In this document: one piece after another, positions 8,865 to 54,723 of the stretch | Layout: every line of letters begins with the position of its first letter | How positions within the stretch are numbered: the first letter of the stretch is position 1 | Source of the DNA: Akkermansia muciniphila | GTDB taxonomy: Bacteria > Verrucomicrobiota > Verrucomicrobiia > Limisphaerales > BJHT01 | Length of the DNA: 57,525 nt | Reading direction: 5' to 3' | Assembly: GCA_945861535.1 (NCBI GenBank) | Contig: CAMAUZ010000048.1 | Location: 1-57,525, forward strand | Position numbers and translations under genes: made by a program | Notes under the pieces: model-generated | What the model was told of the DNA's origin: nothing | The model's database searches: none | The model's input: the letters and a program-made list of their open reading frames with translations, nothing else

Positions 8865-9220
8865 AAGCTCAAAGGCTAAAGCTCAAAGCTCAAGGGAAGT
8901 GATCAAGCGAATCCAAGCACCAAGGCGTCACGTTTCCGTGAGGGCAACAGGAGCGCGGCCTTCAGGCCGCAGAAACGTGCGTGCTGCAGGGGGCGGGCGA
9001 ATTCTCCGCACTGCTTCTAAAGACTCACCAAACGGTGAACGGAGGTGCCCGCTCGGACTTTTGGAAGCGCTCGCTGCGGGCGGGCGTTTCTGCGGCCTGA
9101 AGGCCGCGCTCCTGACGCGTTGGTCCCGCCGACGCCCCGCGCGAAACTTCCATCGCGCCCCGCATGGTGCTTGGCGCTTGGAGTTTCCCTTGAGCTTTGA
9201 ACTTTGAGCTTTGAGCTTTT
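8865..9220. repeat. Element B1: heptad-arm pair enclosing element C1
   Basis: The left arm (8865-8926) and right arm (9165-9220) are inverted. Read towards the outside, each is TTCCC followed by four heptads. Right-arm units: TTGAGCT, TTGAACT, TTGAGCT, TTGAGCT, then T and C tracts. Left-arm units: TTGAGCT, TTGAGCT, TTAGCCT, TTGAGCT. Between the arms sits palindrome C1. The right arm ends 35 bases before the GT4 start at 9256. Confidence 0.85.
8948..9114. repeat. Palindromic element C1
   Basis: Perfect 30-bp inverted arms at 8948-8977 and 9085-9114. Each arm contains the hairpin GCGGCCTTCAGGCCGC. The 107-base spacer is homologous, in opposite orientation, to that of C2 at 47138-47304. Confidence 0.9.
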
Positions 9221-11689: not shown

Positions 11690-12616
11690 CCACGGATGCA
11701 CACCGATAAACACGGATGAAAACCGCTTTCTTCAGCCCGACCGAGTGCCTCAGCCGTAGCCAATGCGGAGCCCGGCCGGTCCCCGTTTGCAGTGCCTGGG
11801 GCGGCAAGCAAGCGGCGGAACATGCCGACGACCTAGGTACTGCCTACGCACCGCCTACGCACTGCGCGCGGGCACGCCCCGTTCCCGTCCCGGAGGGACG
11901 CCGGAGGAGATTAGCCGGGGGCAAGTCCGCTCCAGCGGACGCCGCCCCCGGAAACGGTGCCGCTTGGCTCCGTGCCCCAGCGGGGCATCGAAGAAACAGG
12001 CCTGCGGCGACGAGTGCTGGCGGAAAGGCTGCGGGGTGGACGCCGCCAAAAATTTCTTCGATGCCCCGCTGGGGCATGGCCCGTTCGGGGGCGCAACCGG
12101 GGGCCGCGCCCGCTGCGCGGACTTGCCCCCGGCTAATTTCCTACGGAATCCCTCCGGGACGAAGAGCAAGGCGGTGGAGTCAATTCTTGCATCGTGGGCT
12201 GACGGCCAAGGCGGCGGCAAAATCCGCGCGCGCCGCGAGGATTTTACGGTCGCACGGACGGTTAGTTCAGCCCGCCGCCAATTCGTCTCTTTCCATTCCC
12301 TTGCCCCAGATTCCCCTGCCCAATTCGGCCCTGCTCGCAGCGGCTCCGTCCCGCGCCACCAACCAAATTACCCCTGTTCCGCCACGCCCGGAGCGCCCAC
12401 TCCGGGACCAGAGTTTTAGAATTTTCCGGTGCTCCTCTCCTCGTTCAAGCGCTGCGACCGGGACGGTCGCGCTCCGCTTTGGTGGCGGCTCCGCCGCTCT
12501 GTGGGCACCGTGGGTCCGTGCGCCTCTCGGTAGTGGCGACGGCGTTGGCACAGCTCAGCCGCAGCGCCGGTCAGGCCCCTTTCACCCCCGTGTTCATCCG
12601 TGTCCATCCGTGGTTA
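11690..12616. repeat. Family E arms (E1) bracketing the 11661-12632 gap
   Basis: Inverted words of about 28 bases: CCACGGATG...ACACGGATG at 11690-11718 and the reverse complement (CGTGTTCATCCG, CCATCCGTGG) at 12588-12615. The E words lie close to the ends of the gap, and element D1 lies between them. The 12162-12587 part has no convincing gene, only GC-rich open frames; 12440-12520 shares words with the D flanks. Confidence 0.65.
11886..12161. mobile_element. Palindromic element D1, 276 bp
   Basis: Outer inverted arms of 45 bases (11886-11930 and 12117-12161) start with CGTCCCGGAGGGACG and contain TTAGCCGGGGGCAAGTCC. A perfect inner inverted pair of 24 bases (11973-11996 and 12053-12076) contains CCAGCGGGGCATCGAAGAA. 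The core length equals that of D2 and D3 exactly, and homology fades out over roughly another 100 bases on each side. No transposase is encoded; it behaves like a MITE-type element. Confidence 0.85.
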
Positions 12617-31363: not shown

Positions 31364-31428
31364 CTGGTAAAGGCGGGATTTCGGAACCCAGGCACGAAGC
31401 GAATCTGAACGACGCAGTGCGTCCCCCC

Positions 31429-47304: not shown

Positions 47305-47537
47305 TTGCCCTCACTGGACAGTTGCGCCCAAGGGCTTGGTGGAATGAGCCACCCCGGTTCCCGGCCAGAAGATTTTTCAAACTCAATGCGGTCGCGTCTC
47401 CGCGGCCCGGTCGCCCGTATTCCGCTTCCGTCCTCCTCTGCGCTACCACTCTGCAAATTCCTCGCGCGCCGCGAGGATATCACCGCTGCCGGGCCGCCGC
47501 CCGAGGGCTGAAAAATTGTCGCCAACGCTTTGCTCTT

Positions 47538-47813
47538 CGTCCCGGAGGGACGCCGCAGGAAATTAGCCGGGGGCAAGTCCGCGCAGCGGACGCGGCCCCC
47601 GGTTGCGCCGCCGAACGGGCCATGCCCCAGCGGGGCATCGAAGAAGTTTTTTGGGGCGGCGTCCCCGCAGCACTTCCGCCACCCCGCGTCGCCTCGGGCC
47701 ATTTTCTTCGATGCCCCGTTGGGGCACGGAGCCAAACGGCACGATTTCCGGGGGCGGCGTCCGCTGCGGCGGACTTGCCCCCGGCTAATCTCCTCCGGCG
47801 TCCCTCCGGGACG
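47538..47813. mobile_element. Palindromic element D2, 276 bp
   Basis: Same outer arms (CGTCCCGGAGGGACG, TTAGCCGGGGGCAAGTCC) and inner 24-base pair as D1, core length identical, opposite orientation. No gene is seen in the rest of 47022-48064. At 47930-48050 an imperfect inverted pair with TTCCTTCCCATCTCTGCGG-like words follows. Confidence 0.85.
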
Positions 47814-47929
47814 GGGACCAGGCATCCCCACCTCGCGGTGCGCACGCCGTGCGGAGATCGTCAGAATATTCCATTGCTCCCTTCACTCTCGCCGCGCTGC
47901 ATCCGGGGACCGGTCGCGCTCCGCTTCCG

Positions 47930-48050
47930 CAGCGGCTTTCCCCCTCTGCGTTCCTTCCCATCTCTGCGGTGTTCTGTGGAACCGCTCTCCCGTCCGCAGC
48001 GCTTATCGAAACACCGCAGAGATGGGAAGGAACGCAGACGCGGAAACCGC
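47930..48050. repeat. Inverted repeat with CTCTGCGTTCC / GGAACGCAGA words
   Basis: Left CCTCTGCGTTCCTTCCCATC at about 47952-47971 and its near reverse complement GATGGGAAGGAACGCAGA at about 48019-48036, then ACCGC words on both sides. It resembles a diverged family E pair next to D2. Confidence 0.65.
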
Positions 48051-54042: not shown

Positions 54043-54227
54043 TTGCGCCTATGGAGTTGCAACCGCCATTGGAACCGCAGAGACGCGATGAACACAGCGG
54101 AGGCGGAGTCGCCACCAAGGCGGAGCGCGACCTTCCCGGTTGCAGCGAGTGGGGTGGCAAGGGAGAGGTGGAATACTCTGACTGCTTTCGCATGGCGTAC
54201 GCGCTGCGGGCGGGAACGCCCGGTTCC

Positions 54228-54503
54228 CGTCCCGGAGGGACGCCGGAGGAGATTAGCCGGGGGCAAGGCCGCCCCAGCGGACGCCGCCCCCGGAAACCGA
54301 GCCGCGTGGCTCCGTGCCCCAACGGGGCATCGAAGAAAATGGCCCGAGGCAACGAGCGGTGGCGGAAATGCTGTGGAGAGGACGCCGCCAAAAACTTCTT
54401 CGATGCCCCGCTGGGGCATGGATCGTTCGGCGGCGCAACCGGGGGCCGCGCCCGCTGCGCGGACTTGCCCCCGGCTAATTTCCTGCGGGGTCCCTCCGGG
54501 ACG
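54228..54503. mobile_element. Palindromic element D3, 276 bp
   Basis: Same arms and inner pair as D1, same orientation, identical core length. Homologous flanks reach about 54070 on the left and about 54590 on the right. No gene is seen in 54043-54736 apart from these repeats. Confidence 0.85.
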
Positions 54504-54588
54504 GCGAGCCAAGCGTTGGCGACAATTCATCAGTCGTCGGCCGACGGCCACGGCTGCACCAAAATCCCCGCGGGCCGTGAGAATTTTT

Positions 54589-54723
54589 CGCGGAGCGCGG
54601 CTGTGTGCGCGGAGCACCAGCCGCAGCGGGTTGGCCGCAAGGAACGCCTCCAAATCCCACGGGTGCGGGCGCGGTTTCGGGGCCGCTGCGGCTGGTCCTC
54701 GGCGGACACAGCCGCGCTCCGCG
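54589..54723. repeat. Palindromic element J1 abutting the MacB ATPase start
   Basis: Inverted arms at 54589-54629 (CGCGGAGCGCGGCTGTGTGC, then ...CACCAGCCGCAGCGG) and 54682-54723. It ends 13 bases before ATG 54737, so the ribosome binding region follows the arm directly. Confidence 0.82.

Follow-up and report, generated by a model that had tools for sequence, protein, structure and literature searches.

Element D, a repeat found three times in the window (the whole stretch of 57,525 nucleotides analysed here, which is contig C48 in the 169-contig, 7.94-Mb genome of an uncultured verrucomicrobial bacterium), is likely a non-autonomous, REPIN-like mobile element composed of two REP-like units arranged head to head, which would be mobilised by a Y1 enzyme. 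The element probably spread through the action of an IS200-type single-strand DNA transposase whose own gene is flanked by similar repeats. An earlier note on this DNA had read D as a constrained, non-genic structure; D is indeed repeated, non-genic, strongly foldable and bigger than its core, but it is not an RNA of fixed length conserved as a whole, and the pattern it shows matches miniature mobile DNA in the form of REP doublets.

The three window copies, D1 (11886-12161, forward strand), D2 (47538-47813, reverse strand) and D3 (54228-54503, forward strand), are each 276 bp long and align without gaps at 90.6-92.8% identity, and the alignment bears out both the inversion of D2 relative to D1 and D3 and the reality of the 45-nt outer arms. 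The inner pair, described earlier as perfect in every copy, is so in D1, but it carries one mismatch in D2 and D3 (CCAACGGGG vs CCGCTGGGG). A repeat finder recovers the window copies as matches of 338-341 nt at 87-90% identity, far above chance, and the homology noted beyond both core ends extends, in most copies genome-wide, over a module of at most about 130 bp on the left and one of about 100 bp on the right. These modules lie at 11752-11849 (left) and 12162-12245 (right) for D1, at 47840-47926 (left) and 47436-47537 (right), both on the reverse strand, for D2, and at 54102-54227 (left) and 54506-54587 (right) for D3. In most copies the right module contains AAAATCCTCGCGGCGCGCGAGGATTTT, a hairpin resembling a bidirectional terminator (window 12217-12256, 47453-47496 and 54559-54590); the same hairpin also stands alone elsewhere in the genome, at C35:12912, C7:21568, C92:3525 and C54:21044. 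Other repeats in the window include AAGCTCAAAGCTCAAAGTTCAAAGCTCAAGGGA-type sequences on both strands, some in inverted pairs (9156, 20588, 20712, 37290, 37939, 46327, 55526 and 55901), a hairpin repeat CAGGAGCGCGGCCTTCAGGCCGCAGAAACG at 8938 and 47128 that is part of the 210-nt inverted repeat I3, and GTAGCGCAGGTTTCCAAACCTGC hairpin arrays at 31424 and 50756.

A search of the genome (G000) with D1 located D in at least 40 places, 39 complete and one partial (E 1e-141 to 1e-45), a lower bound inasmuch as 40 of 165 candidates were scored. The earlier note had taken the 276-bp length to be fixed and free of indels, and had named further copies of variable length as the observation that would speak against its reading. 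Such copies exist: 14 of the at least 40 are exactly 276 bp long and 29 fall within 273-279 bp, the rest being 283-313 bp (seven at 311-313 bp) or partial, and the uniform length describes one length class within a genome-wide range of 273-313 bp. More than 20 copies are present in a congener, G001 (Verrucomicrobiota bacterium LBMAG hypo.bin2), and in the GTDB species collection, scanned with the window's own genome left out, the exact 21-mer ATTAGCCGGGGGCAAGTCCGC occurs only in this congener and in the groundwater MAG NC_groundwater_1053. The tag plus stem, ATTAGCCGGGGGC, is found 170 times genome-wide (83 forward, 87 reverse), with no occurrence of the reversed control. Among the first 100 sites listed, 88 form 44 facing pairs and 12 tags are unpaired; 43 of these 44 pairs are spaced 179-276 bp apart, with clusters at 190 (the gene-flanking type), 212-217 (the 276-bp class), 250-252 (the 311-bp class) and 270-276 bp.

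Each half of D consists of a small outer palindrome, hp1 (GTCCCGGAGGGAC), about 10 nt of spacer, the tag ATTAG, a main hairpin, hp2 (CCGGGGGC...GCCCCCGG), that abuts the tag, and then a small hairpin, hp3 (TGCCCC-ARC-GGGGCA), followed by TCGAAGAA; the second half carries the same parts in reverse arrangement. D1 forms a complete doublet with its tags pointing outward. In the left unit of D1, on the forward strand, hp1 is CGTCCCGGAGGGACG (11886-11900, a covarying stem), the tag is GATTAG (11909-11914, corresponding to the GTAG of REPs), hp2 reads CCGGGGGC-AA-GTCCGC-TCCA-GCGGAC-GCC-GCCCCCGG (11915-11951), and hp3 is TGCCCCAGCGGGGCA (11973-11987). The right unit, on the reverse strand, has hp3 at 12062-12076, hp2 at 12097-12132, the tag ATTAG (CTAAT on the forward strand) at 12133-12137 and hp1 at 12148-12161. 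D2 and D3 are likewise complete doublets, with tags at 47562-47566 and 47785-47790 and at 54251-54256 and 54475-54479, respectively. The two halves of an element are usually unlike, one having GTCCGC...GCGGAC and the other GCCCGC...GCGGGC in hp2; this heterodimeric make-up is seen in 43 of 52 doublets. The CGTC-tagged REP superfamily was also considered, since D begins with CGTCCC, and was set aside: CGTC forms part of the outer palindrome, and what stands conserved and unpaired beside the main hairpin is the tag ATTAG.

A single strand of D1 is predicted to fold as one long hairpin (z -15.3 as DNA, -16.4 as RNA). The covariation check suggested in the earlier note gave opposite answers for the two kinds of pairing. 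Across 37 copies, the long arm-to-arm pairing shows no covariation, with changes on both sides in 6 cells vs 7.9 in shuffles. Among 84 aligned single units, the local hairpins have both-side changes in 38 cells vs 12.2 in shuffles, and none of 500 shuffles reaches any of the five measures used. The commonest hp2 change, T-A to C-G, tracks the two arm types and may reflect few events; other changes are scattered and include A-T and G-C at the same hp2 pair, two hp1 pairs and neighbouring hp2 pairs. Of 111 units, 89 have the variable hp2 base in a Watson-Crick pair inside its own arm, against a shuffled mean of 50; across arms this base is mostly mismatched. Because the local hairpins covary and the cross-arm pairing does not, what is conserved is the individual REP unit.

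Nine matches to Y1_Tnp are present in the genome, and one of these genes ties D to a candidate enzyme. P0001, an HUH/Y1 transposase gene encoding 148 aa (C29:9372-9815), lies amid seven ATTAGCCGGGGGC units laid out like D, and its flanking arms match those of D at 95-97% identity over a 39-bp stretch that starts with hp1, includes the tag and ends at the foot of hp2. The congener has an orthologue whose protein is 98% identical and whose gene is similarly flanked. The association has a limit that counts against our preferred explanation: the P0001 flanks share the tag and stem foot of D, but differ at the top of hp2, and in the genomes examined no transposase gene was found flanked by the exact hp2 of D (GTCCGC...GCGGAC). 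A second transposase, 47% identical to P0001 (C29:62860-63291), is bracketed by ATTAGCCGGTGGT units, whose tag is dispersed in 70 copies with 28 facing pairs, against 0 and 1 for the reversed control. For a third Y1 enzyme, at locus L061 (C15:35548), the flanking AATAGCCAGGGGT units carry a tag with only three exact copies genome-wide; this system may be young or inactive. Among 387 Verrucomicrobiota genomes, 82 contain relatives of P0001. Among the 29 relatives that were fetched, TAG directly precedes a perfect hairpin with an 8-bp stem at 44 sites in 21 loci, 36 of these sites having an hp1-like palindrome upstream; the next-best trinucleotide, AGC, which overlaps TAGC, does so at 10 loci, and the median is 5. 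Related loci in other Verrucomicrobiota (L163, L171-L174 and L186) carry an exact GTAG.

P0001 clears the cut-offs of Pfam Y1_Tnp and of the NCBIfam IS200/IS605 model. In all 21 aligned relatives, H55, H57, W94, Q95, G97, Y98, Y114, Q118, H121 and H122 are invariant, giving the motifs HxH, WQxGY and Y---Q--HH; this invariance is taken from the 21-sequence alignment, as a wider motif table chose its reading frames partly by the same motifs. The predicted structure (pLDDT 88) matches the TnpA proteins of ISDra2 and IS608 (E about 1e-9, 25-28% identity) and, far more weakly, the Escherichia coli RAYT 4er8 (E 5e-4, 11% identity). The YIxxNP-type Y motif of class 2 RAYTs (TnpAREP) is absent from the 21 aligned sequences, all of which have Y---Q--HH, the motif given for TnpAY1 subclass 1.2, a group treated in a 2018 paper (PMC6006769). 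The WQ pair, which in class 2 enzymes is linked to the reading of GTAG, is also present (W94 and Q95). The signature, short core and predicted fold, together with a low copy number, support a putative assignment of P0001 to subclass 1.2.

D copies differ in presence between the two congeners, a sign of turnover. At the congener's orthologous sites, whose flanks are about 90% identical, D1, D2 and D3 are all absent, and a further copy, at C38:52167, is common to both genomes; three of four testable copies are therefore missing from the corresponding sites, which are not clean empty ones (a copy at C38:45870 falls outside the count, as the congener contig ends there). In place of D1 and D3, the congener has a different inverted-repeat element, GGTGACTTGTCACC/GGCGACTTGTCGCC (L208:412-559 and L210:568-739), which was seen at congener loci only and at none of the loci fetched from the window's genome. 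At the D2 site, it lacks a block of about 500 bp (47435-47950) that comprises D2 and both flank modules and that in the window is bounded by the 8-bp direct repeat CCTCTGCG (47435-47442 and 47943-47950); a larger unit may have inserted here, or the block may have been deleted between short repeats. A block so bounded is not the expected insertion mode of IS200/IS605 or RAYT systems, and it counts against our explanation, as does the lack of a target duplication signal across 48 copies and the presence of another palindromic element at the congener's D1 and D3 sites.

These observations invite the proposal that D is a MITE, that is, an internally deleted DDE transposon whose arms are terminal inverted repeats and whose mobile unit is the whole block, about 500 bp long and flanked by an 8-bp target duplication. 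The long inverted arms, the flank modules that accompany most copies and the congener's lack of a D2 block with CCTCTGCG on both sides would all suit such an origin, which we nonetheless regard as unlikely: the ends of the D2 block are not inverted repeats of each other, the arms of D match the flanks of a Y1 transposase, no DDE gene with ends of that kind came up in an analysis directed at Y1 genes, and direct repeats flanking the 48 copies are not in excess (mean 8.8, vs 8.5 for mismatched pairs), the 8-bp repeat being found at D2 only. Left and right modules fused without an intervening D, as an empty arrangement would appear, were not found in the window's own genome.

A further possibility is that D, whatever its origin, is kept as a host function at the 3' ends of genes, through termination, mRNA protection or gyrase/IHF-type binding, the roles proposed for E. 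coli REP/BIME sequences. According to a simple gene caller based on codon usage, 35 of the 40 copies overlap no predicted gene, the other five overlapping long open frames that are possibly miscalled; D1 lies between glycosyltransferase genes, D2 downstream of a ribosome recycling factor gene, and D3 between a zinc dehydrogenase gene and an ABC ATPase gene. Among 32 classifiable copies, 20 are located between tandem genes (15 antisense to the genes), 10 between convergent genes and only 2 between divergent genes, and the right module often holds the terminator-like AAAATCCTCGCGGCGCGCGAGGATTTT hairpin, two points in favour of such a role. However, the placement by itself also fits promoter avoidance, the depletion of divergent sites is modest when set beside a window sample in which 6 of 35 gene pairs are divergent, and at one and the same gene the congeners differ in their copies; we therefore consider retention for a host function improbable as the explanation of D. 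That D is a structured non-coding RNA with the long hairpin as its functional form, as the earlier note supposed, is the least credible proposal and very improbable, for although the predicted fold is highly stable (z -15 to -16), the long pairing lacks covariation in 37 copies, an Rfam scan gave no family match at the gathering score, copy length varies and all three window sites differ in presence between congeners.

Returning to D as a REPIN-like element served by a Y1 enzyme, we envisage the following course. The element has the layout of the repeats around P0001 and may be viewed as that locus reduced to its two ends, with the gene left out. In a single-stranded state, for example on the lagging-strand template, each unit would fold its own hairpins; the Y1 enzyme would then read the tag and the foot of the hairpin, and would cut and rejoin the strand beside the tag-hairpin, and doublets could thereby be copied or moved into new intergenic places. 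We infer recognition, cleavage and mobilisation of D by the P0001 enzyme in particular. Such a system would assign a defined DNA substrate to single-strand transposases of a poorly understood class, with two enzymes in one genome each having its own tagged repeat family. It would also offer a direct comparison, testable in vitro, for how an IS200-type transposase becomes a REP-servicing enzyme, and for annotation it accounts for part of the repeated intergenic DNA in this bacterial group.

REPINs are REP doublets that form hairpins (Bertels and Rainey 2011, PMC3116915). D resembles these elements and BIMEs in having two inverted tagged palindromes with outward tags, placed between genes and tied to a Y1 transposase gene, in the predominance of inverted doublets over unpaired tags (44 facing pairs vs 12 in the sites listed above) and in the frequency of heterodimers; around the gene itself, P0001, stand seven units that match in tag and stem and differ in the top of the hairpin. 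The differences are that each half of D carries three hairpins, that the tag is ATTAG rather than GTAG, that the partner is not a class 2 RAYT, and that doublets measure about 276 bp, vs spacings of 71 and 110 bp in Pseudomonas fluorescens (PMC3116915). We file D as a variant of the REP/REPIN kind because it has the facing doublets, intergenic dispersal and flanked Y1 gene, but its tag, ATTAG, places it outside the strict GTAG superfamily, and its partner, without YIxxNP, is no class 2 RAYT. Repeats of the GTAG superfamily are reported to be abundant in Opitutus terrae, another member of the Verrucomicrobia (Di Nocera 2013, PMC3733652). With them D shares a tag set at the palindrome foot, right before a GC-rich hairpin, HH dimers, units flanking tyrosine transposase genes and high intergenic copy number (170 tags), and exact GTAG occurs in other Verrucomicrobiota relatives; ATTAG, however, lies outside the published variants GTAG/GTGG/GYRG, and D has a third hairpin as well as an additional palindrome, CCCGGAGGG, on the outer side of the tag and about 10 nt from it. 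The O. terrae family (PMC3733652) is here compared with D by description, not by sequence. A literature search returned no further paper on this repeat/enzyme system, part of which may be known already through the O. terrae GTAG repeats, the enzyme class not having been noted.

On the enzyme side, TnpAY1 proteins of subclass 1.2 are described as close to IS200/IS605, low in copy number, generally without terminal secondary structures and mostly from Cyanobacteria and Bacteroidetes (PMC6006769). P0001 resembles them in its Y---Q--HH motif, its length of about 150 aa, its low copy number and its proximity to IS200/IS605 TnpA in sequence and predicted fold, and differs in belonging to a type that, in Verrucomicrobiota, is surrounded by tagged hairpins having large dispersed families. 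IS200/IS605 elements such as IS608 and ISDra2 have the same HUH/Y1 enzyme fold and subterminal hairpins, whereas in the D system the gene type is approximately single-copy, the doublets number in the dozens and the recognition units include a TAG tag. We put at even chances the broader proposal that the subclass 1.2 Y1 proteins of Verrucomicrobiota drive a REP system of their own, with tagged units of three hairpins each and doublets of about 240-340 bp, that would represent a domestication, whether independent or transitional, of an IS200-type transposase.
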